Part shown: positions 35,164-64,000 of the stretch, piece after piece
Numbering within the stretch: position 1 is the first letter of the stretch
Layout: each line of letters starts with the position of its first letter
Assembly: GCF_001681715.1 (NCBI RefSeq)
Contig: NZ_LNWY01000007.1
Coordinates: forward strand, 62,001 to 126,000
Source of the DNA: Tritonibacter mobilis
GTDB taxonomy: Bacteria > Pseudomonadota > Alphaproteobacteria > Rhodobacterales > Rhodobacteraceae
DNA length: 64,000 bases
Direction: 5' to 3'
The notes under the pieces: model-generated
Seen by the model: the letters and a program-made list of their open reading frames with translations, nothing else
Told to the model about the DNA's origin: nothing
Databases searched by the model: none
Made by a program: the position numbers and the translations under genes

Positions 35164-35167
35164 GGGG

Positions 35168-37752: not shown

Positions 37753-37848
37753 CTGAGGCTCCGAATGTTCAATTCGGCCCCTGTTGCCTGAAACGCTCGC
37801 ATAGCTAAAATACAAAGAACAAGTAAGATACATATCTTGAGGCTATGA

Positions 37849-38760: not shown

Positions 38761-38866
38761 AGTGCGCGACATGCGCGCGCAGAGAAGGGAACTGAGCAGA
38801 TTGTGATACGTTGAAACGCTGAAACTGCGCTAAGATACGCCGTATTCTAAGTTATGGAGATTGCCG

Positions 38867-39532: not shown

Positions 39533-39552
39533 TTGGGGACGCCGCGCGGGGG

Positions 39553-46419: not shown

Positions 46420-46746
46420 AATCAGAATTAAGATCCCGTCACGTTAGCACCCGTGGAGCGGATGGCCAACGGGGCCGGTGATGGTGCGACGGTTGGTCGT
46501 TGTGCATACGCAAAATGGATGTAATGTTGATTATGTTATAAGTGCTTATCTTGCAGCGTTCGCAGGTGCAGTCAGCGATATGCGAGCGGTAGACCTTGCT
46601 GGGACAGAGGGGGTGCGGGTGTTTCATCCTTCGGTCTGCCACGGCCTCTATGCAAGTGCCGCGTGTTGGGGCATATAGCTCCTGAACACGCCGCGTTTCA
46701 TGTTGATAGCGCAGCATTGTCATCCGCGCTCAGGAGCCAGCTTGCC
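46420..46746. promoter_or_regulatory. Divergent gap between LysR and the GAK-type cassette
   Basis: A 327-base gap with both promoters. An AT-rich patch at 46528-46550 contains the dyad ATAAG-TG-CTTAT (46538-46549), a possible operator. AGGAG at 46732-46736 lies 10 bases before the chosen GTG start at 46747. No small gene is convincing. Confidence 0.5.
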
Positions 46747-49270: not shown

Positions 49271-50334
49271 CCTTGTCGGACATTCTCGCTCATCTCGACC
49301 TGTCTGCGGCAGGCGACGCGCCCTTTGGCCTGTCTGTGGGCCATGTGTCGCTGACGGTTCACGCGCCAGAGCCGCTGCGTGCCCGGCTGATCGCCTATTT
49401 CGGCGAGACGATCACCGCGCCCGGCGGCGGCGCGCCGGTGCATCTGCTGGAGGGGCAGAGCCTTCCGCAGGAGCCCGACTGGATCGACTGGCAGCGCGAG
49501 GGTGGCAAGAGCGGGCGCAAGGATGCGGTGTGCGACCTTGGGGCTGCGCGGCTGATCCGCAAGGTGCGCAGCGGTGTGACCGTCGTGCAAGCGCCGGGTG
49601 TGGCCATTGCGCTGGGGGCGCTGGCCGATAATGAGAGCACCGTCATCAACTTCATCAACACGCAGGTACTGAATGCCTGCCTGCGCCAGGGCTGGCAACT
49701 GGCTCATGCGGCGGCGGTGACGGATGGCGCGCGCACGCTGGCGATCTCCGGCCTGTCGGGCGGCGGCAAGTCCACGTCGATTCTGCGGATGATGGATCTG
49801 CCCGGCACGCAGTTCCTGTCCAATGATCGGGTGCTGATCCAAGGCGGCCCGGCGCGCGCACTTGGCATCCCCAAGCATCCGCGTATCAATCCCGGCACGA
49901 TCCTCGGTAATCCGCGCCTGCACGGCATGCTCTCTGAGGCACGCAAGGCCGAGCTGCGCGCCCTGCCACCCGCCGACCTTTGGGAACTGGAAGAAAAATA
50001 CGATTTGATCGTGCCGGAGGTCTACGGGTCGGGGCGGATGCGCCTTTATGGGCCGCTGACCGATTTCTGGGTGCTGAACTGGTCGCACGACAGCGACCAG
50101 CAGACCCGCGTGACGCCCGTCACACTGGCCGACCGACCAGACCTGCTGAGCGCCATCATGAAAAGCCCCGGCCCCTTCTACCAGCACGCCTCCGGCGCGT
50201 TTGAGCCAAACGGCAACAGTCCTGATCCCGCGCCTTACATCGAGGCGCTCAACGGGGTGAGGGTGTGCGAAGTCTCCGGGCGCATCGACTTCGACGCCAT
50301 CGCTGCGGCGGGCAAGGCGCTGTTTCATGCCTAA
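49267..50334 (+). CDS. HprK-related kinase of the GAK-type system
   Basis: A 355-residue protein whose C-terminal part resembles HPr kinase/phosphorylase. SGLSGGGKST (Walker A, Lys168) and FLSNDRVLIQG follow the HprK P-loop and Asp pattern. The ~150-residue N-domain is not the standard HprK N-domain. No PTS HPr gene is near. It overlaps the ATP-grasp gene by 4 bases and the histidine phosphatase by 8. HprK relatives of this type occur in GAK cassettes and may phosphorylate a Ser on a partner protein; the amphi-Trp protein downstream is a candidate. Confidence 0.78.
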   Translation: MTLSDILAHLDLSAAGDAPFGLSVGHVSLTVHAPEPLRARLIAYFGETITAPGGGAPVHLLEGQSLPQEPDWIDWQREGGKSGRKDAVCDLGAARLIRKVRSGVTVVQAPGVAIALGALADNESTVINFINTQVLNACLRQGWQLAHAAAVTDGARTLAISGLSGGGKSTSILRMMDLPGTQFLSNDRVLIQGGPARALGIPKHPRINPGTILGNPRLHGMLSEARKAELRALPPADLWELEEKYDLIVPEVYGSGRMRLYGPLTDFWVLNWSHDSDQQTRVTPVTLADRPDLLSAIMKSPGPFYQHASGAFEPNGNSPDPAPYIEALNGVRVCEVSGRIDFDAIAAAGKALFHA

Positions 50335-51010
50335 AAGCTATCATGCCTTTTTTCGCCACGGGGCCTACCACCAGTGGGCGGACGTGCCCTCGGCCCGCCA
50401 ACCTTGGGCGCTGAGCGATGAAGGCATTCAGCAAGCGCGGGCGGGCGCGCGGATCCTGCATGACATGCTGGTTGAACAGGATCTGATGCTTGCGCCTGTG
50501 GCGTTTTGCTCGCACCAGTTGCGCGCATGGCAGACAGCGGATCTGCTGATCGCCGCCTTACGGGACCTCGGACACGAAATTACCGATCTGAAGGAGACGT
50601 CTGCTCTGGCCGAACGCGGGCTGGGTTCCGCCGCCAATCTGAGCGTTGCGCAGATTGAACAGGCGCTTGCGGCCGATCCGCGCCACGACGCCCCGCCCAA
50701 CGGCTGGAAGTCCGACAGCGACTATTGCCTGCCGCTCGAAGGGGCCGAGAGCCTGATGATGGCCGGGGCACGCGTTGCGACCCATCTGGAACACGGTGGC
50801 CGGCCGGACCGCGTGACGATCCACGTGGGCCATGGGGCGTCTTTCCGCCACGCCTGTTACCACCTCGGGCTGCTGTCTCGCGACGACATCGCGCGGTTTT
50901 CGATGTTTCATGCCCGACCGTCACTGATCTGTCATGAGACGGATGGTACATGGCGGTATTTGGCAGGTGCGTGGAAAATCAGGGAACCAAAGTCCGAGCC
51001 GAAGGATTGA
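50327..51010 (+). CDS. Histidine phosphatase (PGM/SixA-like) in GAK-type cassette
   Basis: A 227-residue histidine phosphatase-fold protein. FRHGAYHQW (R10-H11-G12) gives the phosphohistidine RHG motif, ELAERGLG-like ALAERGLGS provides the second acidic element and HVGHGASFRHA the second His. It overlaps the HprK-like gene by 8 bases. It could act as the opposing phosphatase to the kinases in the cassette. Substrate unknown. Confidence 0.82.
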   Translation: MPKSYHAFFRHGAYHQWADVPSARQPWALSDEGIQQARAGARILHDMLVEQDLMLAPVAFCSHQLRAWQTADLLIAALRDLGHEITDLKETSALAERGLGSAANLSVAQIEQALAADPRHDAPPNGWKSDSDYCLPLEGAESLMMAGARVATHLEHGGRPDRVTIHVGHGASFRHACYHLGLLSRDDIARFSMFHARPSLICHETDGTWRYLAGAWKIREPKSEPKD

Positions 51011-51037
51011 CCCTGTAAGCAACATGGGGGCCCCGGC

Positions 51038-52342
51038 ATGGACGATCTTCGAAACTTCACCACGACGGACGTCCTGCTGCCCCCGATCCTCGACACCGAC
51101 GCCTGCATGGCGGATCTGCCGCGCTTGCTGGAACCTTGGGATGAGGCTGCGGCAGCCCCCGTGGTGGATTGCCTGTCGCGCGCGCGCAGTCATGGCGGCT
51201 GGCATTGGCCGGATCGTCCGGTGGTCTTTGTCTCGGACCCCCATGCGGATGCTGAGGGGTTCCTGCGTTCGCTCATCGCCGCCGGGGTGATCCATCGCAG
51301 CAAGGGGCGGATAGGGCTGACGCCGTTTGGTCGCACCGCGCATATCGTGCTGGGCGGCGATGCGCTGGACAAGGGCCCGAGCAATCTCGCGCTGCTGGAC
51401 GCCATCGCCGATGTGCTGGACACCGGGGCCGATGTGACGATCCTCGCGGGCAACCACGACTTGCGGATGCGGCTGGCCATCGGGTCGGTGCGGGGGGAAC
51501 GCAGCGCGCTCACCGAACATCTCTTTGTGCGCATGGGGCGCAAGATCCTGCCCGCCTTGCGCGAGGTGCTGACCCGCTTCGTCACGCCCGAGGACATTGC
51601 CGCCCTGCCCCCAGAAGCTGTGTGCAAGGCTCGTCTGATGCCGGGTGAGGATTGGTCGACGCGATTTGCAACAGCCGCGCGCCCTGAATTGCCCGCCAAG
51701 GTCATCACCAAGGAAATCCGCAAGCTCGAGGAAAAGCGCGCCAAATTTGAAACCGACCGCGCCCGCATCGGCATGACCCACCGGGAGCTGCTGGCGGCGC
51801 TGTTGAAATGCCACGATATCTTTTTGGAACCCGAAGGGCATTACGCCTGGTTCTTTGAGCGGATGCAGGCGGTCGCGCGCTCTGGCTCACTGCTGTTCGT
51901 CCACGCCGGCCTGTGTGATGACATGGCGCGCGCGCTGGTGCGCGATGGGGTCGAGGCGGTGAATGCGGCCTATGCGCGTGCCGCCGAAGGGGCGAGCTTG
52001 GGCTTTTATTTTGGACCCTTGGCGAACCTCGTGCGGACGAAGTACCGCGCCTCCGACTGCGCCCTGACCGCGGCAGGCGTCGAGGTGCTCCACCGCGCCG
52101 GGCTGCACATGGTGGTGCAGGGCCATGTGAACAACCACGCAGGCCAGCGTTTGCTGGCCAAGCGGGGCCTGCTGCATCTGGAGGCGGACATCACACTGGA
52201 CCGTGCCTCTCGGGCGCTCGAAGGGCTCGATGGCATTGGGGCCGGGGCAACCTTGATCTTTCCGTCGGGGGATGTGATCGGTTTAAGCCGAGACCACCCG
52301 CGCGCCAAGCACTTCGCCCCGGAACGCATGGCGGCCCACTGA
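51038..52342 (+). CDS. Calcineurin-like metallophosphoesterase in GAK-type cassette
   Basis: A 434-residue metallophosphoesterase. VSDPHADAEGFL (D-x-H), LGGDALDKGPSN (GDxxDxG), LAGNHDLRM (GNHD) and VVQGHVNNHAG (GH) are the four metal-binding blocks of the PPP/calcineurin fold. Between blocks is an insert with a long helical part (residues about 170-270). It lies 27 bases after the histidine phosphatase. Two phosphatases beside two kinases suggest reversible phosphorylation; the substrate is unknown. Confidence 0.85.
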   Translation: MDDLRNFTTTDVLLPPILDTDACMADLPRLLEPWDEAAAAPVVDCLSRARSHGGWHWPDRPVVFVSDPHADAEGFLRSLIAAGVIHRSKGRIGLTPFGRTAHIVLGGDALDKGPSNLALLDAIADVLDTGADVTILAGNHDLRMRLAIGSVRGERSALTEHLFVRMGRKILPALREVLTRFVTPEDIAALPPEAVCKARLMPGEDWSTRFATAARPELPAKVITKEIRKLEEKRAKFETDRARIGMTHRELLAALLKCHDIFLEPEGHYAWFFERMQAVARSGSLLFVHAGLCDDMARALVRDGVEAVNAAYARAAEGASLGFYFGPLANLVRTKYRASDCALTAAGVEVLHRAGLHMVVQGHVNNHAGQRLLAKRGLLHLEADITLDRASRALEGLDGIGAGATLIFPSGDVIGLSRDHPRAKHFAPERMAAH

Positions 52343-52363
52343 CCGCATTGCAAGGATCCTCGC

Positions 52364-52636
52364 ATGAGCACAGACAAGCGTTTTTCTCACGAATCTCTGC
52401 AAGACGCCAAGACGATCAAGACCCTGCTGTCCGCGCTGTCGAAAGGCTTTGCCAAGGGGGAAATGTCGCTGGGCGATGACGACGAAACACTGGTGCTGCA
52501 AACCGCTGACCTGATGACCCTGCGTCTGAAGGGAGAACGGGTCGACGGGCGCTGCACCGTCAGCCTTCGCGTGAGCTGGACCGACCCGGACGCGCCACAG
52601 ACCGGCAAGACCGGAGCGCCACGGATCGACAGTTGA
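52364..52636 (+). CDS. Amphi-Trp domain protein
   Basis: A 90-residue protein with the amphi-Trp fold pattern. The short N-terminal helix with KTIKTLLSALSKGFAKGEMS is followed by beta strands alternating hydrophobic residues, VDGRCTVSLRVSWTD, with the conserved Trp. Ends the cassette, 21 bases after the metallophosphoesterase. Small amphi-Trp proteins occur in GAK cassettes and are plausible substrates or carriers for the ATP-grasp and kinase enzymes. Confidence 0.75.
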   Translation: MSTDKRFSHESLQDAKTIKTLLSALSKGFAKGEMSLGDDDETLVLQTADLMTLRLKGERVDGRCTVSLRVSWTDPDAPQTGKTGAPRIDS

Positions 52637-53137
52637 TCCTGATACCTGTCCCAAGTTGGCGCAAAATCCGCTCTCGTAAATTTAAACCTGCCGGATCTTG
52701 CGAGCGGTTTGTTGATCGCTCAATGAACCGCTGATCGGCCACCTGACCCAACCCCAAAGAGAACCCCAAAGGGACAGTGCGCTCGCGGTGTCTGAGGACG
52801 GGATACGAGGGCCAAAAAACGGGATTCGGGACCTCAGAAATCAGGTTTGAGCCAGAATGCAGAAGGTCCAGATTGCGCGGGATTCTGACTGGCGGGTCAA
52901 TGTTGCTTCTTTTGATGGCAACAAAATCAGGGATTTACCTGAAAAGTATACATCGAAAATTTACCATGAATCGCAGGATCTTATCGTGATCTAGGCCGAA
53001 TTTCGCCGGTGCGGCACATGTCCTAATTCGCAATCTAGCGCGTCCTATTTCGCGAAATTGGACGCCCCGGATTTTACGCCGTTGTAGCGCTTTTGAGGTC
53101 GCCAGATGTTTTGGCGGCAGAAAAGAGGAACGGCCCC
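52637..53137. other. 501-base gap without supported gene
   Basis: Between the GAK-type cassette and the ketosynthase operon. GGGAT-centred near-repeats occur at 52780-52845 (GGGATACGAGG and GGGATTCGGGA), and the 52920-52990 stretch is AT-rich. Short frames here show no known product and no terminator with a T tract was found. The gap may be a junction between two accessory cassettes and probably holds the promoter of the following operon. AGAGGA at 53124-53129 is the ribosome site of the next gene. Confidence 0.5.
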
Positions 53138-54070
53138 ATGACAAGCCTGTGTCACATCGCGCTGTCCCACGACAGTGGTCGCAAAGTCCCCGTCGCAGAG
53201 CTGGGTGGCAGCCACGGGCTGACCGCCGCCTCGGCCAAGATGTATGATCGGTTTTTCGGATTACAATCGGTGCTGCGTCAAAATAGTGACCAGACGCATA
53301 TGCTTAGGTCGGTGCTGCAAAAGGCCGTCGCCAGCCTGCCAGATCAGGGACGGACACCGGGGGTTTTGGTCTATTGCAAGACCCAGACCCATAACACGCA
53401 GAGCGATCAGAACTGGCTGCGGCGCTTGGCCGATGCTGCGGGTTTGGCGCAGTGGGAAGTGCATGCGCTGTCGATGACAAGCTGCGCCTCGGCGCTGGTT
53501 TGTCTGCATTTCATTCAGTCCTGCGGCACCACCGCGCCGGTGATTGTGCTGACCGGCGAGAAAGCGTTTCACCCCTCGGTGGCCCGCCTGACCGTGGGGC
53601 TCTTGGCAGAAGTGCCAGTGGCGGCGGTTTTGAACGGTGGGCCGGGATCATGGCGGGTTCGTGCAACCGACGTGCGGCACCTGCCCCGGTTTCATATCAA
53701 CCCCGAGGCGATGGACCCGCAGGACCGCAGCGCCCTGCAAGAGGTCTATGCGCCAGAACTCACCCGTTTTATCGCCGGTTTCCTTGAACAACATGCCGCG
53801 GCTCTCGACCCGGAGTTGGTGTTTATTCCGCATAACCTGAACCGCCCGCTGACCGATGCCTTGATCCGGGAGTTCGGCTGGGAAGAGCAACACCATGCGG
53901 GCGATGTGACGCAGATCGGTCACGCCTATTGTTCGGACCCCTTTCTCAACCTCGACGCCTTTGTGCAATCGCGCCGGCCCGCGCAGCAGGTGCTGCTGCT
54001 GGCGGCGGGCACTGGCGTGACCTTTGCAACCTGCCTGCTGGAGCGATCCGCTGTCCCCGAAACCGTCTGA
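53138..54070 (+). CDS. FabH-type ketosynthase 1
   Basis: A 310-residue thiolase-fold KAS III homologue. The nucleophile is likely Cys116 (LSMTSCASALV), and His232 (IPHNLNRP) takes the place of the HQAN motif. The third site reads GHAYCSDPFLNLDAF (261-275) where FabH has GNTSAA. Compared by eye, the usual Asn becomes His. Upstream, GEKAFHP (140-146) is shared with ketosynthase 2. The ATG at 53138 follows AGAGGA. First gene of the operon. It would condense an acyl thioester with a carrier-bound partner; substrates unknown. Confidence 0.83.
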   Translation: MTSLCHIALSHDSGRKVPVAELGGSHGLTAASAKMYDRFFGLQSVLRQNSDQTHMLRSVLQKAVASLPDQGRTPGVLVYCKTQTHNTQSDQNWLRRLADAAGLAQWEVHALSMTSCASALVCLHFIQSCGTTAPVIVLTGEKAFHPSVARLTVGLLAEVPVAAVLNGGPGSWRVRATDVRHLPRFHINPEAMDPQDRSALQEVYAPELTRFIAGFLEQHAAALDPELVFIPHNLNRPLTDALIREFGWEEQHHAGDVTQIGHAYCSDPFLNLDAFVQSRRPAQQVLLLAAGTGVTFATCLLERSAVPETV

Positions 54071-54112
54071 TCCTGTGATCCAACCCTTTGCCGAAATACA
54101 AGGAAGCCTTTT

Positions 54113-54382
54113 ATGAACACCACCATTTCCACAGCCATCGCCGAGGTTCTCACTGAGGTTCTGGAGCGCCCCGTTACAGATCTGCGCCCCGAGATGCGGT
54201 TCGACCGGGATTTCGATCTCGACAGCTATATGTTCGTGCAGTTCCTGCTGGGGCTAGAAGACAAGCTGCCGGGGCTGCGGTTTGATCCTGAAACCATCGG
54301 TCAGGCCGGGTTCAACACCATGGAAAATCTGGTCCAGCATGTGGAGGCAAGCCTTGCCCGCGCGGAGCAGGCGCATGCTTGA
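54113..54382 (+). CDS. Acyl carrier protein 1
   Basis: An 89-residue carrier protein: FDRDFDLDSYMFVQFLLGLE, with Ser38 in DLDSYM as the phosphopantetheine site. It has the usual four-helix length. It is 42 bases after ketosynthase 1 and overlaps the next gene by 8 bases. It presents acyl chains to the neighbouring enzymes. Confidence 0.83.
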   Translation: MNTTISTAIAEVLTEVLERPVTDLRPEMRFDRDFDLDSYMFVQFLLGLEDKLPGLRFDPETIGQAGFNTMENLVQHVEASLARAEQAHA

Positions 54383-55025
54383 TCGGGTCGCCGGATCACC
54401 TGTGGAGCAGGTGTTTGAAACCGCGCGCAAGGCGCATCCCGCGCAGGCATTGCAGGCGACCTGTTTGCTGGCCACCGGGCGGGATGGCTTTTTGGCGGGT
54501 GCCTGTCATGCGGTGCATCGCTCGGGCGCGCCGCTGGTGGCGCTGTCGAATACGCCGGTTGAGGTCGTGATCCGCGACACCGAACAGGAGCCGGGCATCG
54601 CCTGCTTTGATCTGGTGCTGTCGCAGCTGAAGCCGCGCGCGCCACAGGCGATACCGCCACAGGTGCACACATTGGTCGTGGCGCTAAGGGCGGGCTTGCT
54701 GGCGCGGACCATGGATCTGGCGTTTGTGCATCTGCAGGATCGTGAAAGCCTCGGTCAGAAGACCTTGCATCACCAGTTGGTCAAGGCGCGGTTCTCGGAC
54801 ACCAGCGCGTTCCTCAGCCAGTTGCGCCGGGAATTGGCCGTTGTGGGCAGCGAGGGCATCGTCGACTCGCCGGGGCGGCTGCATAACGCAATCGACACCC
54901 ATCTGCTGCATTGCGCCAAACTGATGGGCGGGCACGGGCTGCGAGACGCGGCAGTGCATGGGCTGGAATATCTGTCGGTGCTGATCCGCGCGACATTGGC
55001 CAGCCAGCAGGGCACCGGAGTGTGA
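54375..55025 (+). CDS. Half-length acyl-CoA-dehydrogenase-like protein
   Basis: A 216-residue protein with C-terminal helical-domain similarity to acyl-CoA dehydrogenases: ARTMDLAFVHLQDRESLGQK, then HHQLVKARFSD (like ERKQFG-KPIADFQLVQAKLAD) and LHCAKLMGGHGLRDAA (like QIHGGYGY). The N-terminal and beta domains are missing or too diverged to see, and I find no catalytic Glu. It overlaps acyl carrier protein 1. It may be a non-catalytic partner for the fused decarboxylase/dehydrogenase, or an ancient truncation. Function unknown. Confidence 0.6.
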   Translation: MLDRVAGSPVEQVFETARKAHPAQALQATCLLATGRDGFLAGACHAVHRSGAPLVALSNTPVEVVIRDTEQEPGIACFDLVLSQLKPRAPQAIPPQVHTLVVALRAGLLARTMDLAFVHLQDRESLGQKTLHHQLVKARFSDTSAFLSQLRRELAVVGSEGIVDSPGRLHNAIDTHLLHCAKLMGGHGLRDAAVHGLEYLSVLIRATLASQQGTGV

Positions 55026-55029
55026 TCCG

Positions 55030-55656
55030 ATGATGAGCCGCTCCCACCACTCTGAGGTACAGCTGCTTGCGGCGGGATCGCTGCCGGATCGCCCCAGCGC
55101 CCGCCCGCTGCTGTTTTCCTGCGACGCCGCGGACGCCGCCCCGACTGACCCCTGCCGCCCCGCGCGGTTGGAGGCCTGGCACCGCCTGCACAGCGCGGCC
55201 ACGGGGCCGACCGGGGCGGTGGCGCATTTGTTTCAAGGGGCGGGATCTGGTCCGGACCTTCATGCGCAGCGCTTGCGCGAGGACTGGCAGCGGCTCTGCG
55301 CCGAGACCGACACGCCCCTGCTGGTCTACCTGCATTGCGGGCATCAGCCCGACACCCGCAGTCCGGTGCTGCAACATCTGCTGCAGACGCTCGATCACCA
55401 TGGCGCTGTGCATGCGCTGCGGGTCGAATGCCGCCGGTCTTTGCGCGACGCCATGGTGCTGGCGCGTGCCCTGACAGCCAACAGCAGCCTGTCGCTGGTG
55501 CTGCGCGATCCCACGGAACGTCTGAGCATGCGCCCGGAGCGCAGCCGCCCGCTGCGATTTGCGCTGCTGGCCACCCGAGACCGTGCCAGCGCCTTTGCGG
55601 CGCGCCACGCGCCCATGTCCGGCACTTTTGCCGCCACGCCGATCAGGAGCCTATGA
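55030..55656 (+). CDS. Half-length ketosynthase-like protein
   Basis: A 208-residue protein without a named family. PLLVYLHCGHQPDTRS (96-111) followed by VHALRVECRRSLRDAMVLAR (127-146) runs parallel to the nucleophile region of ketosynthase 1 (GVLVYCKTQTHN, then VHALSMTSCASALVCL), with Cys134 where Cys116 stands. The C-terminal half with His and GH motifs is absent. GGAG lies 9 bases before the ATG. It may be a structural partner of a ketosynthase. The alignment is by eye and needs confirming. Confidence 0.5.
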   Translation: MMSRSHHSEVQLLAAGSLPDRPSARPLLFSCDAADAAPTDPCRPARLEAWHRLHSAATGPTGAVAHLFQGAGSGPDLHAQRLREDWQRLCAETDTPLLVYLHCGHQPDTRSPVLQHLLQTLDHHGAVHALRVECRRSLRDAMVLARALTANSSLSLVLRDPTERLSMRPERSRPLRFALLATRDRASAFAARHAPMSGTFAATPIRSL

Positions 55657-57017
55657 TGCAAACTGCCAATACCACCGCCGACGCGCTTCTTGACGGGCCC
55701 AGACCGTCGGTCTGGCATACGCTGTCGCGCATTCTGCTGCTTGCTCTGCCGTTTGCGGTGGGTGCAGCGGCGACCTCGACGCTGAATTTGGGCAAAGTGG
55801 CCCTGCTGGCGCGGGTGCCGGACACTGGCGCGCTGGCCACGCTGTCGCTGCTGCAACCGAGCTTCATCCTTGCGCTGGCCATCATGGAAGGTTTGGCGAT
55901 CACCGCGCAGGTGTTCAGCGCCCGTTCACGCCACAACTGGCCCCGCCGGGGCACCCAGCGTGCGGTGTATCGTCTGTGTCGCAATGGCGTGCTGTTGTTT
56001 GCAGTGGTCGCCGCACTTGGTTACGCGGCCGCGCAGATGCTGACGGTCGAGGACGCGGAACTGCGCGTGATCCTGGATCATTTCCCCCTGTTCATGCTGT
56101 CGCTGGTGCCCTTTGTGGTCTTTGACATCTTTTACGGCGCGATGCGCGGACAGGGCAAAGTGCTGCTGGGCCTTTTGCCCTTCATGGGGCTGGTCGCCCT
56201 CGATCTGAGCACCACCTACGTGCTGGTGTCGAACTACGGCTGGGGGTTTGAGGCGGTTCTGGTCGGCAACCTTGTGGGGCCGGTGCTGATGCTGCCGGTC
56301 ATTGCCTGGCTGTTGCACCGCGAAGTGCGCAGCGGCGATGACAGCCCGGAAGAGCCGTTTCGTATCCGCATGCGCCAATTGCAGATCGGGGTTGGCATCC
56401 CGGTGTTCAGCTCGATCGTGGTGGGCTTTGTCAGCGCCTCGGTGGTGTTTCCAATCCTTGCCAAAATCGGTGAGGACAGCGCCTCTGCCTTCTTTGTGGT
56501 GCTGCGCTATCGCATCGCCTTTATGATCCCGGCCATCGCCATCGGCTCGGCCATTGCGATCCTCGTCAACCAACTGGCCGAGGAAGGACAGACCGCGCAG
56601 CGGCTGCGCTATCTGGTGATCGGCGTGCCGTTTATGCTCAGCCTTTACGCGGCAGTGACGGCGTTGTTGCCCCAGTGGGGCGGCGCGCTGGATCTCTTGG
56701 TGCCCGCGCAGGCCGAAGCGCTGCGTCAGGCCACCGACGAGATGTTTGCGGCATTGCTGGTTACCTTCTTTCTGGTCTCGGGCTCCGCCATGCTGCAGGT
56801 GATCCTAGAGCAGCTTGGCCGTGGGGTTCAGGTGCTGGTGATTACCTTCCTCATTGAGGCGGGCACCTGTGCGGGGGTGGTTTGGGCGATGATGCAGGGG
56901 GCCGGAATGGGCCTGATCCTCGACATCCTGGTTGCCGCTGCCGCCCTGGGCTTTGGCCTCTTTGCGGTGCAGTTCCTGCTGCTTCTGCGCAAACTGGGGC
57001 GCGCCGATGCTGTTTGA
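55653..57017 (+). CDS. MATE-family efflux transporter
   Basis: A 454-residue membrane protein with about 12 helices in two halves. LALPFAVGAAATSTLNLGKV near the N-terminus corresponds to the MATE start, then LLQPSFILALAIMEGLAIT; the second half starts near ISVFSSIVVGF-like RMRQLQIGVGIPVFSSIVVG. The start ATG at 55653 overlaps the previous stop; 55656 is an equal alternative. It probably exports the operon's product. Length fits the family. Confidence 0.82.
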   Translation: MMQTANTTADALLDGPRPSVWHTLSRILLLALPFAVGAAATSTLNLGKVALLARVPDTGALATLSLLQPSFILALAIMEGLAITAQVFSARSRHNWPRRGTQRAVYRLCRNGVLLFAVVAALGYAAAQMLTVEDAELRVILDHFPLFMLSLVPFVVFDIFYGAMRGQGKVLLGLLPFMGLVALDLSTTYVLVSNYGWGFEAVLVGNLVGPVLMLPVIAWLLHREVRSGDDSPEEPFRIRMRQLQIGVGIPVFSSIVVGFVSASVVFPILAKIGEDSASAFFVVLRYRIAFMIPAIAIGSAIAILVNQLAEEGQTAQRLRYLVIGVPFMLSLYAAVTALLPQWGGALDLLVPAQAEALRQATDEMFAALLVTFFLVSGSAMLQVILEQLGRGVQVLVITFLIEAGTCAGVVWAMMQGAGMGLILDILVAAAALGFGLFAVQFLLLLRKLGRADAV

Positions 57018-57975
57018 GCTGGCCTATCCCGGCCTCTGTGCCTGGGCGCTGTTGCGCCGGGCAACGGGGCGCCCCACCCCGGCGGGACCGTTGTTTGCCT
57101 TTCGCGCCATTCGGGGGCGCATGCGGCGGCACGAGTTGAGCGGCCTGACGGCGCTCAATCCGCGCTGGGGCGCATGGCTGGCGCTGCATCGCTTTGAGCG
57201 CATGGTGCCCGGAGCCGCGCCGCAGATGCGCAGCACCTATGAGACAGGCGGCCTTGCGGAGCAGCGTTTTGGGCCCGTGGATGGGCCACGGGTGCTGCTG
57301 TTGCACGGCTGGAACGCGCGCAGCGATATGATGCTGCCGCTGGCCTTGGATCTGGCGGCACGGGGCGCGCGGGTGATCCTGCCGGATTTGCCTGGCGAAG
57401 GGCGCAACCCCGCGCGCCCCATGAGCTTTGGCGCCAAGGCCCGCATCCTGTCCGCGCAATATCGCAGCGAGAACATCACAACCGTGATCGGACATTCCGC
57501 CGGTGGCCTGATCGCGGCGCTGGCGCTGGAGGCCGGTCTGGGACGGGCGCGGCTGGTGACAATCTGCGCGCCTTTCTCGCTCGAAACGCTTTTGCGGGCC
57601 TATCTGTTTCGCATCGGCGCACCCAAAGCCCTGAACACGGCGCTTTTGTCTTATGTCGAACAACGCGATGGACGCGCGCCTGCCAAAGTCGGACCGGAGC
57701 TTTATGCCCATATGGGCGCGTGGATGCAGGTGATCCACGCCCGTCGCGACTGGCAGGTGCGGGCAAGCGAGGCCGACGCGATCCGCGCGGTCGTCCCGGC
57801 GGCGGCGTCAACGCTGCTGGATGGCTGTAACCACCATACGATCCTTGAAGATCCACGCCTGTTTGACGCGGTGGCGGGGTTTGCCTTGCCGCGCGCCGCC
57901 CGTCCCACCGTCCGCCCTGCTCCCCGGAGGTCACAAAGACCGCTGGAGCCGATTGCGGGAGGGCAGCCATGCTGA
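57007..57975 (+). CDS. Alpha/beta hydrolase (possible thioesterase)
   Basis: A 322-residue alpha/beta hydrolase with LLLHGWNARSDMM (oxyanion HG), VIGHSAGGLIA (nucleophile Ser164) and a C-terminal CNHHTILEDPRLFDA giving the catalytic His region. The start overlaps the MATE stop by 11 bases. In a carrier-protein pathway it could release the product from its thioester, edit stalled intermediates or act elsewhere. Confidence 0.82.
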   Translation: MLFELAYPGLCAWALLRRATGRPTPAGPLFAFRAIRGRMRRHELSGLTALNPRWGAWLALHRFERMVPGAAPQMRSTYETGGLAEQRFGPVDGPRVLLLHGWNARSDMMLPLALDLAARGARVILPDLPGEGRNPARPMSFGAKARILSAQYRSENITTVIGHSAGGLIAALALEAGLGRARLVTICAPFSLETLLRAYLFRIGAPKALNTALLSYVEQRDGRAPAKVGPELYAHMGAWMQVIHARRDWQVRASEADAIRAVVPAAASTLLDGCNHHTILEDPRLFDAVAGFALPRAARPTVRPAPRRSQRPLEPIAGGQPC

Positions 57976-58955
57976 ACCTTATTGACCTCTCCGTGGTATT
58001 CCCCGCGCGACAAGAGAAACTGGTCGATCTGGCCGAGGATCTGTCGCTAAGCCGCAACCAGATCCGCATGTTTGATCGCTTTTTCGGCTTTGAGACCTTT
58101 CACTGTGACCATAACGAGCCGCTGGATGCGCTCTTGTCGCGTGCCACCGACGGGCTGATGGCGCGCAACCCCCATCACCGCGCCGCCCTGAGTCACGCGG
58201 TCCACTGTCACACACTGCTGACCACCCATGTGTTTGGGCAAAGCAGCGCGCTGGCGCAAAGCCCTGCGTGCCTTGCGGGTTTTGCATCCGAAGGTGTGGA
58301 AGTGTTCAGCGCCACCATGAACCACTGCGCCACCGGTCTGAGCATGTTGGGCCTGCTGGATCACTTGCTCGATCCCGGGGATCTGGGGCTGATCCTGATT
58401 GGCGAGAAAGCCTTCCACCCCGCCATCCGGGTGATCGAAAACACCACCATCATGGGCGAAGCGGCGGCGGCCGTGCTGGTTGGACATGCCCCCGGCCCGT
58501 TCGAAGTCGTCGATACTTTCGTGCGCCACGCACCGCAGTTTTGGAAGAACACCGGCCTGCGCGGCGAGAATTATCTAGAAGGGTTCGACAGTGCCTATCT
58601 GCACCTCGCCAGCAGCACCCTGCGCGACGCGCTGGCGCATTTTGACCGCACCGCGCAGAGCCTGCGCTGGATCATGCCTCATAACGTCAATGCGCCCTCT
58701 TGGTATCAGGTGGCCGAGGACGCCGGGCTCGATAAGGCGCAACTACGCCTGTCGACCATCGGCTGTTATGGCCACTGTTTTGGCGTTGATCCTTTTCTCA
58801 ACCTTTGGCGCGGGGCGCAGGACGGAGTGCTGCAGCCCGGCGATGAGGTGCTGTTGTTCAGCATTGGTCTCGGTGCGACCGCGTCCTGTGCGCTCTTGCG
58901 GGTAACGGATGTGCCGCTGCCCCTCCCCTTTCCGACAAATGGAGTTTCCGGATGA
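57969..58955 (+). CDS. FabH-type ketosynthase 2
   Basis: A 328-residue thiolase-fold protein: nucleophile Cys120 (MNHCATGLSMLGLL), His238 (MPHNVNAPSW) and CYGHCFGVDPFLNLW (266-280) in the FabH Asn position. GEKAFHPAIRV (145-155) and GEAAAAVLVG follow the same pattern as ketosynthase 1 and mark a common ancestor. It overlaps the hydrolase by 7 bases and the next carrier protein by 4. Complete KAS III length. Substrate unknown. Confidence 0.85.
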   Translation: MLNLIDLSVVFPARQEKLVDLAEDLSLSRNQIRMFDRFFGFETFHCDHNEPLDALLSRATDGLMARNPHHRAALSHAVHCHTLLTTHVFGQSSALAQSPACLAGFASEGVEVFSATMNHCATGLSMLGLLDHLLDPGDLGLILIGEKAFHPAIRVIENTTIMGEAAAAVLVGHAPGPFEVVDTFVRHAPQFWKNTGLRGENYLEGFDSAYLHLASSTLRDALAHFDRTAQSLRWIMPHNVNAPSWYQVAEDAGLDKAQLRLSTIGCYGHCFGVDPFLNLWRGAQDGVLQPGDEVLLFSIGLGATASCALLRVTDVPLPLPFPTNGVSG

Positions 58956-59230
58956 CCGATATGACAGACACCATTTTTGCCAGCCTGAGTGACATCGGCC
59001 TTGGACCGCAGCGGATCGACCGGGCGCGCTCGGGTGATGCGCTGTTTGGCACTGGCGGGCTGCTGAACTCGATTGAGCTGGTTCAGTTCATCGTCGCGCT
59101 TTCAGATCGAACTGGCATGGAAAGCTTTGATTTCATGGAAAGTTTCGAAGGGGGCGCCGGGGTATTCGACAGTATCGCTTCCTTGTCTGGGTTCATCCTC
59201 GGGCGCAAACCCCAAGATGTTGCGGTGTGA
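58952..59230 (+). CDS. Acyl carrier protein 2
   Basis: A 92-residue carrier protein with LLNSIELVQFIVALSD; Ser40 is the expected phosphopantetheine attachment site (canonical DSL replaced by NSI, which is tolerated in discrete carriers). Coupled to ketosynthase 2 by a 4-base overlap and two bases from the fused enzyme. It differs clearly from carrier 1, suggesting two separate acyl carriers. Confidence 0.8.
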   Translation: MTDMTDTIFASLSDIGLGPQRIDRARSGDALFGTGGLLNSIELVQFIVALSDRTGMESFDFMESFEGGAGVFDSIASLSGFILGRKPQDVAV

Positions 59231-59232
59231 CG

Positions 59233-61668
59233 ATGGCTGAGTTTGAGATCATGCCGCAGGAGGCAGCACAGCTCCATGGGCTGGCCGAGCGCGTTGGAAC
59301 GCCGTTTTATGTCTATGACGCCGCCTTGGTGCGGGCGCGGTATCGCGCGCTGACCCGCAGCCTGCCGGATGCCGGGTTCTTTTATTCGCTCAAGGCCAAC
59401 CCCAATCTCAGCCTTGTCGGGCTTTTGGTGGCGCAGGGCGCGGGTGCCGAGGTCAGCTCTCGGCTGGAGTTGGAAACCGCTGTGGCGGCGGGCGCTCCGG
59501 CGGAGCGTATCCTGATGGTCGGCCCCGGCAAAGCCGAAGCGGATCTGGAACGCGCGGTTTCACTGGGGATCAAGGCGATCGTGGTGGAATCCCTTACGGA
59601 GCTTGACCAGATCGACCGGATTGCCGCCAAAGCTGGACGTTGCCAGCCGATTGCGCTCCGGATCAATCCAAATTTCAAGGTGAGCGGTGCGCGCCTCAAT
59701 ATGAGCGGACGGCCGACCCAATTTGGCATCGATGAAACCGCCATGGAGAGCGCGCTGGCGCGTGTTGCAGCGCTTGATCATCTGCGGCTGGCGGGGCTGC
59801 ATGTCTATATGGGCACCCGCATTCTGGCCCATGAAACCATCGTGGAAAACACCCGTGGCATTCTGGAGCTGGCCGCGCGGGTGGCGCAGACTCTGCCGGA
59901 ACCAATGGCGTTTATCGACATCGGTGGCGGATACGGTGTGCCCTATTATGAGGATGAAACCCCGCTGGATCTCGCCGCCCTTGGCGAGGCGATGCGACCG
60001 CTGCTGCGGGGGTTCTGCGAGACCCACCCGGAAACCGCCATCGCCATTGAACTGGGCCGCTACATGGTGGCCGAGGCCGGGCGCTTTGTCACCTCGGTGC
60101 GGCAGGTCAAAGCCAGCAAGGGCGAGAATTTCGCGGTCTGTGATGGCGGCTCAAACCTGCATAGCGCGGCGGCGGGACAGGGGTTCATGCGCCGCAATTT
60201 CCCGGTGTCGCTGGTGCCACATCCCGCGCGCCAATCCTCTGCGGCTGAGGCGTCACCATGGAGCGTCACCGGCCCGCTGTGTACGCCCATGGATGTGATC
60301 GCCAAGGACGTCTCCCTTGCTACGCCTGCGCCCGGGGATCTGATCTGTATTCACCAATCCGGCGCTTATGGCGCGACGGCTTCACCGGTGAATTTTCTGG
60401 GATTTGGCGCGCCTGCTGAAATCATGATCGACGAAGGCACCGCAACGGTGGTGCGCGAACGCGCGCAGGTGCAGGCCTTTCTTGACGAGCAGATGCCGCG
60501 CCAGATCTCCATGCGCCCGGCGGTGACCGAGGCGGCCCTGCCCGCCCCCTTCGATCATCCTGCACTGGAGCGGCTGGAAGCGGTGCGCCCCCTGTTTGAA
60601 ACCACGGGCGGCAAATTGGCCCAGGATCCCGACGCTTGGCGCGACCTCTGGGCCGACCCGATGGTACGGGCCCTGACCATGATTGGCGTCCCGGCGGAGT
60701 ACAATGGCTTCCCGCTTGCAGAAAGCGGCCTTGGTCTGGAGCACTGCCCCCATGATCTGCACGTGGCGCTGGTGGAGCGACTGGCGCGGTTTGACGCGGG
60801 ATCTATCCTGGCGCTTCAGGGGCCGTCGCTTGCGGGCGGCGCGCTGGATGCGGTGGGCTCGCCCGCACAAAAAGAGCGCTTCTTTGGCGCATATCGCAGC
60901 GGGCCACAGGGCACATTCTTTGCGGTGACCGAACCGGAAGTGGGATCGGATGCCTCGGCGGGCAGCGCGGTGCTGCGCCTGACCGACACGGGCTATGTGC
61001 TGAGCGGCAGCAAGATGCTGATTGGCAATGTCGCGCGCGCTCAGATCGGGATTGTTTTTGCTAAATTCGAGGACAGCGGTCGCCGCGCGCTGGTGCTGGT
61101 AGAGCCCGATCGGGTACGCGCGCATCTGACGATTACCCGCCTGCCCACCACGGGGATGTCGGGGGCAGATCTGTGCCGCATCGATATGCGGGATGTGCCC
61201 GTGGCGCAGGAAGATCTTGTCGCGGCACAATCGGAGCGGCCCTCGCTGCGCGATGGGTTCATGGCGATCAACGGTGTGTTTGAACGCTACCGTCCGGCGG
61301 TCGCTGCCTTGGCGCTTGGCAATGCGCGCGGTATGTTGGAGCGACTGGCCCGGCATGGGCAGGCAAACGCCTTTACCAGCGAGTTCCGCAGCCACGCCGC
61401 CCTGATTGCAGCGCTGGCAGATGTCTGCGCCGACGGGATGCGCGGTCAGGCCAAAGGGCACCGTATCAGCGAGATCAAATATCAGGCTGTGGCCTTTAGC
61501 GACGCACTTGTGGCCCGTATCCCGCGCGATGCCCCGGCGGTGATGCTGACCGACCCGTTGCTGCGCCGCAAGATGCGCGACGCCAAGGGGTTTGAGTATA
61601 TGGAAGGCACGTCCAACATTCATGTGCTGAACGCCTATCGCGCCTATGTGGCAGGGGTGGCGTCATGA
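59233..61668 (+). CDS. Fused fold-III PLP decarboxylase and acyl-CoA dehydrogenase
   Basis: An 811-residue two-enzyme fusion. Residues 1-420 are an ornithine/DAP-decarboxylase-like fold-III PLP enzyme: FFYSLKANPN with Schiff-base Lys54, phosphate loop GGGYG (231-235), and GPLCTPMDVIAKD with Cys350. Residues about 430-811 are a full acyl-CoA dehydrogenase: TFFAVTEPEVGSDASAG (FAD/substrate loop) and MEGTSNIHVL with the C-terminal catalytic Glu. The LCTPxD form resembles decarboxylases that act on carrier-bound amino acids (such as BtrK in butirosin), and two carrier proteins sit nearby. I infer decarboxylation of an aminoacyl thioester followed by alpha,beta-dehydrogenation. The start is the ATG at 59233; a GTG 6 bases upstream is possible. 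Confidence 0.85.
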   Translation: MAEFEIMPQEAAQLHGLAERVGTPFYVYDAALVRARYRALTRSLPDAGFFYSLKANPNLSLVGLLVAQGAGAEVSSRLELETAVAAGAPAERILMVGPGKAEADLERAVSLGIKAIVVESLTELDQIDRIAAKAGRCQPIALRINPNFKVSGARLNMSGRPTQFGIDETAMESALARVAALDHLRLAGLHVYMGTRILAHETIVENTRGILELAARVAQTLPEPMAFIDIGGGYGVPYYEDETPLDLAALGEAMRPLLRGFCETHPETAIAIELGRYMVAEAGRFVTSVRQVKASKGENFAVCDGGSNLHSAAAGQGFMRRNFPVSLVPHPARQSSAAEASPWSVTGPLCTPMDVIAKDVSLATPAPGDLICIHQSGAYGATASPVNFLGFGAPAEIMIDEGTATVVRERAQVQAFLDEQMPRQISMRPAVTEAALPAPFDHPALERLEAVRPLFETTGGKLAQDPDAWRDLWADPMVRALTMIGVPAEYNGFPLAESGLGLEHCPHDLHVALVERLARFDAGSILALQGPSLAGGALDAVGSPAQKERFFGAYRSGPQGTFFAVTEPEVGSDASAGSAVLRLTDTGYVLSGSKMLIGNVARAQIGIVFAKFEDSGRRALVLVEPDRVRAHLTITRLPTTGMSGADLCRIDMRDVPVAQEDLVAAQSERPSLRDGFMAINGVFERYRPAVAALALGNARGMLERLARHGQANAFTSEFRSHAALIAALADVCADGMRGQAKGHRISEIKYQAVAFSDALVARIPRDAPAVMLTDPLLRRKMRDAKGFEYMEGTSNIHVLNAYRAYVAGVAS

Positions 61669-62528
61669 CCCTGCGGCTCGATCCCAAAAACCTCGTTGGT
61701 GGCAGTTTTGGTGGGCTGGAAGAGCCGGTTGAGGACGCCGCAGACCAGCACGCCTATTGGGAAGATTTCAACGCGCGCTTCTTTCGCTCCAACGGTCAGG
61801 AGTATGACAGCGCCCGGCAAAGCAATGTCGCCAATTGGCTGGCCGCCCCGGATCGAGCGTCCTTTGCGGCGATGGCGGGGGCGCTGCTGGAGCAGTTGCA
61901 GCAAAACGATGCGCTGGACGATATAGATCTCGTGTTGTTGGCCCATTGGATGCCGGATCTGCATCTGGGCACCTCTGTCACAAATTTTGCGCTGCATCGG
62001 TTGGGGATTGCCGATGGGTTTGGCTTTGCCATCTCGGATCGCGGCCTGTCGGCACCCTTGTTCGCCATGGATTGCGCGGCGCGTTACCTGCGGCGGCAAG
62101 GGCGGCGGGCGCTGGTGATGACCATGGATCAAAAGCACCTGCTTTATCAGTCCGATACGGTCGCGGCGCTGCAGCCGGAAAACTCTGCCAGCCTGATGGT
62201 GCTGGAAACCGGCACCGGGCCGGGACTGCGCTACTGCGGGTATCGCCGCCACATCAACGTCGAGAGCGGCGATCTGCCTGCGGTGGTGGATGCCACCTGT
62301 CGCGACCTCGGCCTGACGCCCGAAGCCACGGTTTTGATTGCGGATAACGGGCTGGAAGGGCTTGGCGAAGGATTTGCCGGGTGGTGCCCGACCCAGCCCA
62401 GCCAGATGTGCGCCGCCCCGTTGCGCAGCCTGATGTCCCTGCCAGAGCCGGGCAACTGCCTGTTGCTGACACGTCAGGACCGCGAAGTCTGCGTTGTTAG
62501 CTTGGCCCAAGACGACGGGAGCGCATAA
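61665..62528 (+). CDS. Degenerate ketosynthase-like protein lacking the active-site Cys
   Basis: A 287-residue thiolase-fold protein. FGFAISDRGLSAPLFAMDCA (119-138) stands where the nucleophile elbow should be; no Cys lies at the expected place near residues 126-127. ALVMTMDQKHLLYQSDTVAAL and ENSASLMVLETG fit the following KAS strands. The His and GH motifs near the C-terminus are also missing (only ADNGLEGL seen). It overlaps neighbours by 4 and 1 bases. It is likely a non-catalytic partner, like chain-length factors in type II PKS. Confidence 0.68.
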   Translation: MTLRLDPKNLVGGSFGGLEEPVEDAADQHAYWEDFNARFFRSNGQEYDSARQSNVANWLAAPDRASFAAMAGALLEQLQQNDALDDIDLVLLAHWMPDLHLGTSVTNFALHRLGIADGFGFAISDRGLSAPLFAMDCAARYLRRQGRRALVMTMDQKHLLYQSDTVAALQPENSASLMVLETGTGPGLRYCGYRRHINVESGDLPAVVDATCRDLGLTPEATVLIADNGLEGLGEGFAGWCPTQPSQMCAAPLRSLMSLPEPGNCLLLTRQDREVCVVSLAQDDGSA

Positions 62529-63529
62529 TGCGACTGGCCAGCCTCGTCAGCCATATCCCCGCCGCGCGGCTAAGTGCAGAGGACATCATCCGTGCCGCCG
62601 GTGGCAGCCCCGTAGAGGCGCGGGTCTTTGAACGTATGTTCGGGCTCGATCATGTGGCAGCGGTACCCGAGGGAGAGACGCTCTCACAGCAGTTCGATCA
62701 GGTGCTGCAAAAACTGACCGCAAGCCACACCGGGCCGCGCCCGGATGCGCTGATCTATGTGCATGGCCAACCGTTACAATATGCGGCGGGGCAGTCTCCG
62801 GTGCAGGTGCTATGCGCCAATCAACCGGTGCTGGCCGAGATCACGCGCCGCTACGAGGTCGACCAGTACAACTGTGGTGGGCTGTTCTGGGCGCTGGATC
62901 TGGCGCGCACACTGCTGAACGCAGGGCTCGCGCATGCGGTTGCGGTGCTGGGCGGTGACAGCCATATTGGCCTGCCGCTAGGAGATCGCTACGTCCCCGG
63001 CTGCACCCTGATGGGGGATGCCTTCTGCGGTATGATCCTCGATCAGATGCCGGGCGGGCTGCAGGTGGGTGATGTGGCCATGTGTACCCACCCGCGCTTT
63101 GCCCGCGGTCGCGCTGGCACCGCGACAGAGATGGGGGATTTCTTTGCCGCGCATGGCGGGATCGTCAGCCAGTCGCTGGCCCGAATTGGATTTGACTGGC
63201 AGGGCGATTGTGCGCTGTTGCCGCATAATGTGAACCGGCTCGCATGGCAGATGTTTTGCCGCGAGACCGGCCTGCCGCAAAGCCGCCTGCGGCTGGGGCT
63301 CTTGCCGGACATCGGGCATTGCTACACCAGCGATCCGTTTTTGCTGCTGGAACAGGAGCGCCCCGCCCTGAGCGCAGGCCAGTCCTGCGCGATCCTGTCG
63401 ATCGGGATGGGGGGCTATGCCGGGGCCTGCATGATCACCCAGACCGCGACCGCCTCCTCAACCGCCCAGAGTAAGCCTGCCCCGACAGCGAAGGAGCATC
63501 ACCCATGTTCGCAACTCATTCTCTCCTGA
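62528..63529 (+). CDS. FabH-type ketosynthase 3
   Basis: A 333-residue KAS III homologue with Cys116 in VDQYNCGGLFWALDLA, His233 in LLPHNVNRLAW and the third motif PDIGHCYTSDPFLLLE (260-275). It has a different middle region from ketosynthases 1 and 2 (GGDSHIGLPLGDRY replaces GEKAFHP), so it probably has a different substrate. It overlaps the degenerate partner by one base, suggesting a heteromer. The last ~25 residues overlap the next gene. Confidence 0.84.
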   Translation: MRLASLVSHIPAARLSAEDIIRAAGGSPVEARVFERMFGLDHVAAVPEGETLSQQFDQVLQKLTASHTGPRPDALIYVHGQPLQYAAGQSPVQVLCANQPVLAEITRRYEVDQYNCGGLFWALDLARTLLNAGLAHAVAVLGGDSHIGLPLGDRYVPGCTLMGDAFCGMILDQMPGGLQVGDVAMCTHPRFARGRAGTATEMGDFFAAHGGIVSQSLARIGFDWQGDCALLPHNVNRLAWQMFCRETGLPQSRLRLGLLPDIGHCYTSDPFLLLEQERPALSAGQSCAILSIGMGGYAGACMITQTATASSTAQSKPAPTAKEHHPCSQLILS

Positions 63530-64000
63530 TCGATTTTCTCGCCAAGGCAGCAGAGACGCGCCCCGAGGCACCGGCCGTGCGCGATGCGCATCATGCGCTG
63601 AGTTATCAGGCGCTGCTCATGGCCGCCGCGCGCATCGCACGCACATTGCGCGCCTGTGGGGTGAGCCCCGGTGATCGGGTTCTGTTGTCCTGTCCAAATT
63701 CGGTGGGCTTTGTGGTTGCCTATTGGGGCATTGTGGCCTGCGGCGCCGTGGCGGTGCCGCTCAACCCGGGTACCCCGGTGGCAAAACTGGCCTTTGTCCT
63801 GAAGGATTGCGCCCCGGCCGCGGTGATCGGCGATCCCAATAGCGCAGACACATTGCGCGCCGCATTGGCACAAACAGGTCAGGCCACGCCGCTGCTGAGT
63901 GACGCGCTTGTCACCTGCATTGCGGCGGCGCAGGCGGGGGAGGTGGTCGAGACCCTGCCTGCACCACAGGTGATAGATCAGGATCTGGCGACATTGATTT
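63505..64000 (+). CDS. AMP-dependent acyl ligase (partial, cut by window end)
   Basis: The first ~165 codons of an adenylate-forming enzyme. From the ATG at 63505 the protein begins MFATHSLLIDFLAKAAETRP, then LSYQALLMAAARIARTLRAC, GVSPGDRVLLSCPNSVGFV and AYWGIVACGAVAVPLNPGTP, the standard N-terminus of acyl-CoA/aryl/fatty-acyl-AMP ligases. The ATP-binding core and catalytic Lys lie past the window. It overlaps ketosynthase 3 by 25 bases. It may load a starter acid onto one of the two carrier proteins. Confidence 0.85.
   Translation, partial: MFATHSLLIDFLAKAAETRPEAPAVRDAHHALSYQALLMAAARIARTLRACGVSPGDRVLLSCPNSVGFVVAYWGIVACGAVAVPLNPGTPVAKLAFVLKDCAPAAVIGDPNSADTLRAALAQTGQATPLLSDALVTCIAAAQAGEVVETLPAPQVIDQDLATLI

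Follow-up and report, generated by a model that had tools for sequence, protein, structure and literature searches.

A 25-gene cluster of Tritonibacter mobilis that probably makes a peptide-like metabolite without condensation domains

The DNA analysed here is a stretch of 64,000 nucleotides from Tritonibacter mobilis (contig NZ_LNWY01000007.1, positions 62,001 to 126,000; hereafter the window), at the end of which a sequence-only reading had noticed twelve tightly packed biosynthetic genes and had supposed that the cluster continues past the window. All 12 open reading frames (g1 to g12) were found on the + strand, starting at 53138, and the 11 gaps between them range from -25 to +42 bases (+42, -8, +4, -1, -11, -7, -4, -4, -4, -1 and -25 from g1 to g12). 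By extending the contig we found that the cluster indeed runs on, comprising 25 genes on one strand between window coordinate 53138 and about 79998. The source contig measures 145,849 bases and the plasmid of T. mobilis F1926 147,082 bases; window positions 46000-64000 matched three T. mobilis plasmid records over their whole length with 97.2-97.3% identity, and positions 20000-40000 matched the same three plasmids with 98.0, 97.8 and 97.5% identity over 100, 97 and 72%. Thus, the replicon carrying the cluster is very probably a Tritonibacter plasmid.

Domain searches bore out the parts list of the sequence-only reading, 11 of the 12 genes being about as described. Genes g1 (53138..54070), g7 (57969..58955) and g11 (62528..63529) encode relatives of 3-oxoacyl-acyl carrier protein (ACP) synthase III (KAS III) with a Cys-His-Asp acyltransferase pattern, matching Pfam ACP_syn_III_C with E values of 3.6e-10, 3.6e-12 and 6.5e-5, the last below the curated cutoff. 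Two carriers lie in the window: g2 (54113..54382), an acyl or peptidyl carrier with a PP-binding match (E 5.3e-7) and a DS serine motif (LDS in 8 of 8 aligned rows), and g8 (58952..59230), which has no Pfam match and is carrier-like by its unusual NS[IL]E serine motif, of the type LNS[IL]E[LF]VQF in 9/10 rows (one gene counted twice). The decarboxylase-dehydrogenase fusion g9 (59227..61668; 813 amino acids) contains both Pfam domains, and the half acyl-CoA dehydrogenase g3 (54375..55025) gave only a sub-cutoff match to Acyl-CoA_dh_1 (E 0.018). Also present are the MATE-type exporter g5 (55656..57017), whose MatE match (E 7.8e-4) is below cutoff and whose Rahnella homologue (31% identity) is annotated MatE; the alpha/beta hydrolase g6 (57007..57975; Abhydrolase_1, E 4e-12), which may act in release or deprotection; and the AMP-binding ligase g12 (529 amino acids), cut by the window end (63505..64000; in full L002:11506-13095). 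Of the two genes taken for ketosynthase relics, g10 (61665..62528) is supported as a KAS III relative, as shown below, while g4 (55030..55656) was rejected as such (hhalign against the KAS set 5.6%, no Pfam match) and stands as a conserved protein with no recognised fold.

Beyond the window follow a carrier, g13 (L002:13134-13400), with a DS motif in 7/8 rows, the pattern giving no match in the Rahnella row; the adenylating enzymes g14 (L002:13397-14953) and g16 (L002:16387-17934), which flank a P450-like protein, g15 (L002:14965-16311); an HlyD-type adaptor, g17 (L002:18161-19387); and an ABC ATPase, g18 (from L002:19391). The remaining genes lie in L003 (to L003:7999) and encode two FtsX/MacB permeases (g19, g20), a flavin adenine dinucleotide (FAD) enzyme (g21, with Pfam matches below or near cutoffs), a luciferase-like (LLM) enzyme (g22), a second acyl-CoA dehydrogenase (g23), a phosphopantetheinyl transferase (g24) and an AraC-type regulator (g25). 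These assignments come from a Pfam scan of 24 of the 25 cluster proteins; the scan left out g18, which is named from the annotation of the F1926 gene. Within this scope Pfam gave no match to a condensation domain, and none to a malonyl transferase, a ketoreductase, a dehydratase, a citrate synthase, a desaturase or a multimodular nonribosomal peptide synthetase (NRPS).

When the first half of g9 was compared with the PDB, BtrK was the closest solved protein (7ru7 and 2j66, E 1.4e-86 and 1.6e-86; next match 7.3e-49), its PDB label being L-glutamyl-[BtrI acyl-carrier protein] decarboxylase. The second half matched Acyl-CoA_dh_M above cutoff, with the N and C domains below cutoff, and aligned with CaiA/YdiO at 99% by hhalign. 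Judged by open reading frame lengths, 9 of the 15 decarboxylases of our tree have the dehydrogenase as a fusion partner. Using narrow motif patterns, we found K-x-MGG-x-G, as the pattern [KQ]x[ML]GGxG, in all 12 rows of g3 (the window's own counted) and R..xGxK in 10 of them, and the EGT loop, which by analogy with medium-chain acyl-CoA dehydrogenase we take to be the catalytic-Glu site, in none; for the dehydrogenases of the g9 family (21 rows, among them repeated genes and paralogues) the same counts were 0/21, 0/21 and 18/21, and an EG[TAV] loop occurred in 21/21. As the narrow patterns also failed on g23 (0/6 each), a wider set was applied, by which the FAD-helix, GG and EG[TAV] motifs occurred in 11, 12 and 1 of the 12 g3 rows (in several of which the first match of the helix pattern falls at another place), in 2, 3 and 21 of the 21 g9 rows, in 2, 6 and 0 of the 6 g23 rows, and in 2, 2 and 0 of the two controls, CaiA and YdiO. 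The two motifs of g3 are in register with RVQFG...Q and QVLGG of CaiA, at places that in g9 are gapped or lack a motif. These motifs suggest that g3 keeps FAD-interface-type elements of a C domain, lacks the EGT loop and is complementary to g9, so that g3 and the g9 dehydrogenase may form a split enzyme. In the available stretch of one genome with the gene set (G584), g3 had no match.

To characterise the KAS III-like proteins, 38 rows (36 distinct genes) were aligned with Escherichia coli FabH. The column of FabH Cys112 is Cys in all 38 rows and that of His244 is His in 36; the Asn274 column is His in 38/38, so that the FabH Cys-His-Asn triad is not seen, and an Asp stands five residues beyond it in 38/38. 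A Cys/His/Asp triad is reported for AfcL and AfcO of the AFC-BC11 pathway, and AfcL, tested with surrogate substrates, accepts a beta-alanyl peptide and passes it to lysyl-CoA (PMC12186527); a 3-oxoacyl-ACP synthase is also suggested to ligate acyl-CoAs to dehydro-beta-alanyl-ACP (PMC11204786). Because of this shared pattern, the activity of AfcL and the latter suggestion, amide-forming transfer appears likelier for g1, g7 and g11 than FabH-type carbon-carbon joining. The FabH-type chain joining envisaged in the sequence-only reading is thus doubtful, given the His and Asp columns and the lack of malonyl transferase, ketoreductase and dehydratase matches in the 24 proteins scanned.

When the KAS families were pooled, hhalign aligned g10 with them at 92.9% (E 3.6e-7); taken singly, the families of g7, g11 and g1 gave 75.9, 3.4 and 1.6%, and two dehydrogenase families 0.0 and 0.1%. 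FabH chains were also the top PDB matches of the g10 profile (E 0.0014-0.0015), followed by methyltransferases at 0.28. In the alignment with FabH, g10 has no Cys opposite the FabH Cys. In every locus where both genes were found, g10 immediately precedes g11, and in Rahnella and G584 a second copy adjoins another KAS. It is a fair guess that g10 would be a Cys-less partner of g11, for which PqsB/PqsC offer a parallel.

Comparison of g12 with the PDB returned VinN (3wvn, E 8.1e-75; 3wv4, 4.3e-66) directly below multi-domain LgrA chains, and when a 200-residue part was used, VinN came top (9.2e-35; next different protein 1.3e-24). Of the VinN pocket residues, D230 and R331 are retained in g12 and S299 is replaced by Thr; the pocket Asp and Arg occur in 13/13 rows of the g12 family, one Burkholderia cenocepacia enzyme included. 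These features make g12 most likely a VinN-type enzyme adenylating the side-chain carboxylate of Asp, and the VinN match and retained pocket led us to reject g12 as a fatty-acyl ligase; Pfam itself does not separate such ligases from other AMP-binding enzymes. BtrK (butirosin) and VinN (vicenistatin) are thus the nearest solved relatives of the first half of g9 and of g12; the BtrK pathway feeds an aminoglycoside side chain and the VinN pathway a polyketide synthase (PKS). All three adenylating enzymes (g12, g14 and g16) retain the amino-acid-type residue Asp235. For g14 and g16 the pocket was read by anchoring on motifs. In g14 it reads DVFS[LIV]CTVA in 11/11 rows, with 8 of 9 positions invariant, and because of its likeness to the DltA pocket DLMSMCTVA (read by eye from the g14 alignment) we guess at a small amino acid, for instance Ala. 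The g16 pocket varies among nine rows, for which reason its substrate may differ between clusters.

The sequence-only reading had proposed that a ligase loads an amino acid, which is then decarboxylated and desaturated while bound to a carrier. This agrees with our evidence and with a published module: in bolagladin and AFC-BC11 formation, carrier-bound Asp is reported or proposed to be converted to beta-alanine and then dehydro-beta-alanine (PMC7756342, PMC12186527). What marks a module of this afc/bol type by sequence, a VinN-type enzyme with D230/R331, a BtrK/VinO-type decarboxylase and an acyl-CoA-dehydrogenase-type desaturase, was found in the cluster. We compared it with afc and bol by their descriptions. 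The afc cluster of the Burkholderia cepacia complex has in common VinN-type Asp adenylation, a pyridoxal-phosphate decarboxylase acting on the carrier, Cys/His/Asp KAS III-like acyltransferases, an acyl-ACP-dehydrogenase-type enzyme proposed to form dehydro-beta-alanine, and no condensation domains; however, it is described with one carrier, one adenylation domain, a fatty-acyl AMP ligase, a citrate synthase and a methyltransferase (PMC12186527), whereas the present cluster has three carriers, three amino-acid-type adenylating enzymes, the decarboxylase-dehydrogenase fusion, the half dehydrogenase, the P450-like protein, the LLM enzyme, and MATE and MacB-type exporters. By its lack of a citrate synthase match in the 24 proteins scanned and its three amino-acid-type AMP-binding enzymes, it is not classed as AFC-BC11. 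The bol cluster of Burkholderia gladioli has the VinN-like BolO, the carrier BolC, the BtrK-like BolN, the dehydrogenase BolQ and KAS III homologues, but bolagladin formation then relies on an NRPS of the classical kind and on a fatty acid derived from citrate, neither found here (PMC7756342). In the enamidonin-type autucedine/olenamidonin pathway of Streptomyces, a 3-oxoacyl-ACP synthase is likewise suggested to join an acyl group and dehydro-beta-alanyl-ACP, though the product is a cyclic lipopeptide (PMC11204786). Solanimycin was discarded as a relative, its dehydro-alpha-alanine arising, as described, from an unrelated PKS/NRPS (PMC10204066). An 'NRPS-like' cluster of T. mobilis AK171, reported to lack similarity to known clusters (PMC11225332), could be the present one, and in the parts of PMC9015054 covered neither antiSMASH nor nonribosomal was found. 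No paper describing all 25 genes was recognised in open-licence literature searches. The earlier statement that no described pathway has this gene set therefore holds for the whole cluster, in the literature searched, and fails for its core module, already published for bolagladin and AFC-BC11.

Taken together, these results lead us to propose, with a probability of about 0.62, that the product of the cluster is a short, peptide-like metabolite with an Asp-derived unit, either beta-alanine or dehydro-beta-alanine, assembled nonribosomally by stand-alone enzymes without condensation domains. From gene content, family resemblance, active-site residues and conservation we infer its substrates, step order, partner pairs and activities as follows. 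The side-chain carboxylate of Asp would be activated by g12 and loaded on a carrier; the decarboxylase half of g9 would remove the alpha-carboxylate to give beta-alanyl-carrier; and after N-acylation this would be desaturated to dehydro-beta-alanyl-carrier by the dehydrogenase half of g9, which g3 probably completes. Other amino acids would be supplied by g14, with its conserved DltA-like pocket, and g16, with its variable one, while g1, g7 and g11, the last perhaps with Cys-less g10, would pass acyl or peptidyl chains from carrier to carrier and form the amide bonds. Release or trimming would fall to g6, tailoring to the flavoenzymes and export to the MATE and MacB-type systems. This mechanism is put forward because enzymes of the same kinds act, or are proposed to act, in bolagladin and AFC-BC11 formation (PMC7756342, PMC12186527); three carriers (g2, g8 and g13) and the phosphopantetheinyl transferase also speak for it.

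Several observations weigh against this proposal. The choice of Asp over Glu for g12 rests on its resemblance to VinN, and Glu is the substrate of BtrK; the cluster has no recognised fatty-acyl ligase that could provide the N-cap before desaturation; and the catalytic His of the KAS III-like proteins is missing in g1 of Agrobacterium vitis (Tyr) and of Rahnella (Gly). A His in place of the FabH Asn also gives a Cys-His-His set as in FabB/FabF, compatible with carbon-carbon condensation. Furthermore, neither of the E. coli controls (CaiA, YdiO) has the EGT loop, and hhalign gave 0.3% for g3 against CaiA (0.3-1.5% over CaiA/YdiO), for which reasons the split dehydrogenase is offered as a suggestion. 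AlphaFold2 models were too poor for use (pLDDT 38.7 for g10 and 47.1 for g4).

Alternatives have to be weighed. The product could be a lipopeptide like AFC-BC11 or bolagladin, its fatty-acyl part made by genes elsewhere in the genome, a view that overlaps our proposal, so that the odds of the two are not exclusive. The core enzyme kinds are in common and, as far as described, all three precedents have the unit N-capped with a fatty or lipid acyl group; since Pfam gave no citrate synthase or desaturase in the 24 proteins scanned and the Asp235 of all three adenylating enzymes is of amino-acid type, we regard it as unlikely, though worth keeping in mind. A glutamate version, in which g12 loads Glu and g9 yields gamma-aminobutyryl-carrier, desaturated to a 4-aminocrotonyl unit, draws on BtrK, the closest solved decarboxylase, which uses glutamyl-ACP. 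We consider it improbable, because g12 is nearest to VinN with D230 and R331 retained, the reported substrate of AfcP is L-Asp loaded on a carrier (PMC12186527), and BolN, likened to BtrK, is nevertheless proposed to use Asp (PMC7756342). Slightly less credible again is a polyketide-like route, close to the view of the sequence-only reading, in which the KAS III-like proteins would form carbon-carbon bonds between a beta-aminoacyl starter and malonyl units. The KAS fold, the Cys in 38/38 and His in 36/38 rows and the FabB/FabF-like His would suit it. PKS beta-aminoacyl starters are, moreover, established (PMC7756342). However, malonyl transferase, ketoreductase and dehydratase were all absent from the Pfam matches of the 24 proteins scanned, the acyltransferase-pattern Asp is invariant, and three amino-acid-type adenylating enzymes suit a peptide better.

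The cluster is not a chance assembly: dN/dS lay between 0.026 and 0.298 in 35/35 comparisons, which took in 18 genes (g9 being represented by its first half), and other genera carry the gene set as well. Gene order is the same from g1 to g25 in T. mobilis F1926, from g2 to g18 on a Phaeobacter metagenome-assembled genome (MAG) contig and from g1 to g18 in Epibacterium (both stretches stop there), from g1 to g15 in Gemmobacter (record end), from g1 to g14 in genome G004 (contig end), and from g1 to g16 and then g21 to g25 in G420. It is partly rearranged in Rhizobium pMK-3 and G645 and rearranged in Rahnella and G584. A. vitis VAR03-1 keeps the order, with separate decarboxylase and dehydrogenase genes and an extra KAS; tblastn gave no match there for g4 or g8, and small genes sit at those places. 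A shorter form in G027 is followed by a thioesterase and a 1238-residue adenylation-ketoreductase-carrier protein (L041:14495-19008). An operon decaying without present function, which the dead-looking g10, g3 and g15 might suggest, is scarcely believable given the retained order and low dN/dS, that of g15 (0.063 and 0.078; dS >1, so rough) being among the lowest.

Searches with g10 gave matches in 2/385 genomes of the class and 4/398 of the phylum, the source genome and G420 being among both, and matched 16 plasmid records. With g9 at 1e-60, 10/148 relatives matched, three at full length (the source included), one as two genes and six with the decarboxylase half only. The gene set was found on plasmids of Gemmobacter, Rhizobium, A. 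vitis and Rahnella. Since the cluster is rare, patchy and often plasmid-borne, horizontal transfer is likely.

In g15, the Pfam P450 match covers residues 260-409 (E 2.2e-24), with PDB matches in roughly the same part, and ExxR occurs in 12/12 full rows. The heme-ligating Cys is absent from nine of these (window, F1926, Phaeobacter MAG, Epibacterium, two Rhizobium, G420 and two G645) and present in three (A. vitis, Rahnella and G584). The two groups are split by one branch of the g15 tree with 100/100 support, consistent with a single loss of the Cys; the nine rows lacking it correspond to clusters with fused g9, and the three with Cys to those with separate genes. An open-licence literature search for P450s without the heme-binding cysteine in clusters found no paper by those words.

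Some further loci are worth recording. The g16 homologue of Rhizobium pMK-3 has been annotated as a pair of overlapping frames (L020:2107-3614; frameshift or sequencing error), and A. vitis VAR03-1 has a short g22 (LLM) match only, beside g23 (L021:27518-28033; 39% over about 80 residues). A plasmid of Streptomyces sp. CA-256286 (L023:11956-21100) carries in one run a g9-type decarboxylase (49%), ligase, carrier, P450, ferredoxin, ectA, ectB and ectoine synthase. On a Streptomyces decoyicus plasmid (L025:1128-21891) a large NRPS has as neighbours a dehydrogenase, a KAS III-like protein and a decarboxylase of the BtrK type (46% to g9); this may be an enamidonin-type cluster. An unannotated locus of Burkholderia cenocepacia CMCC(B)23006 (L024:14854-26109) has a VinN-type enzyme (33% to g12), a BtrK-type decarboxylase (38% to g9), three KAS III-like and two dehydrogenase-like genes, and a LuxR-type regulator. 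We withdrew its identification as the afc locus because Pfam gave no citrate synthase or fatty-acyl ligase among the seven of its open reading frames that were scanned; it is a locus sharing kinds of core gene, not established as afc. It is perhaps the CepR2-linked cluster. Upstream of the present cluster and outside it, at window positions 46663-52636, the F1926 annotation names a phosphotransferase, GAK-system ATP-grasp, HprK-related kinase B, histidine phosphatase, metallophosphoesterase and amphi-Trp protein, and parts of this block also occur on Pseudooceanicola and Qingshengfaniella plasmids.

A bolder form of our proposal, which we hold only tentatively and rate as doubtful, is that the cluster represents a dispersed peptide assembly line of a new class, in which KAS III-like acyltransferases of thiolase fold replace condensation domains throughout, one per carrier and one with a Cys-less KAS partner, alongside a dehydrogenase split in two and a P450-fold protein that, having lost its heme, may have a non-oxidative role such as carrier recruitment. 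If our proposal is right, peptide bonds can be made stepwise by small soluble KAS III-like enzymes and not by large NRPS modules, in a cluster common to marine and plant-associated bacteria and often plasmid-borne. The use of KAS III-like proteins as a general replacement for condensation domains, a dehydrogenase FAD site spread across two subunits, and the role of a P450 fold without heme would thereby become testable. A product containing dehydro-beta-alanine might share the light sensitivity of AFC-BC11, one possible reason for its having escaped notice.

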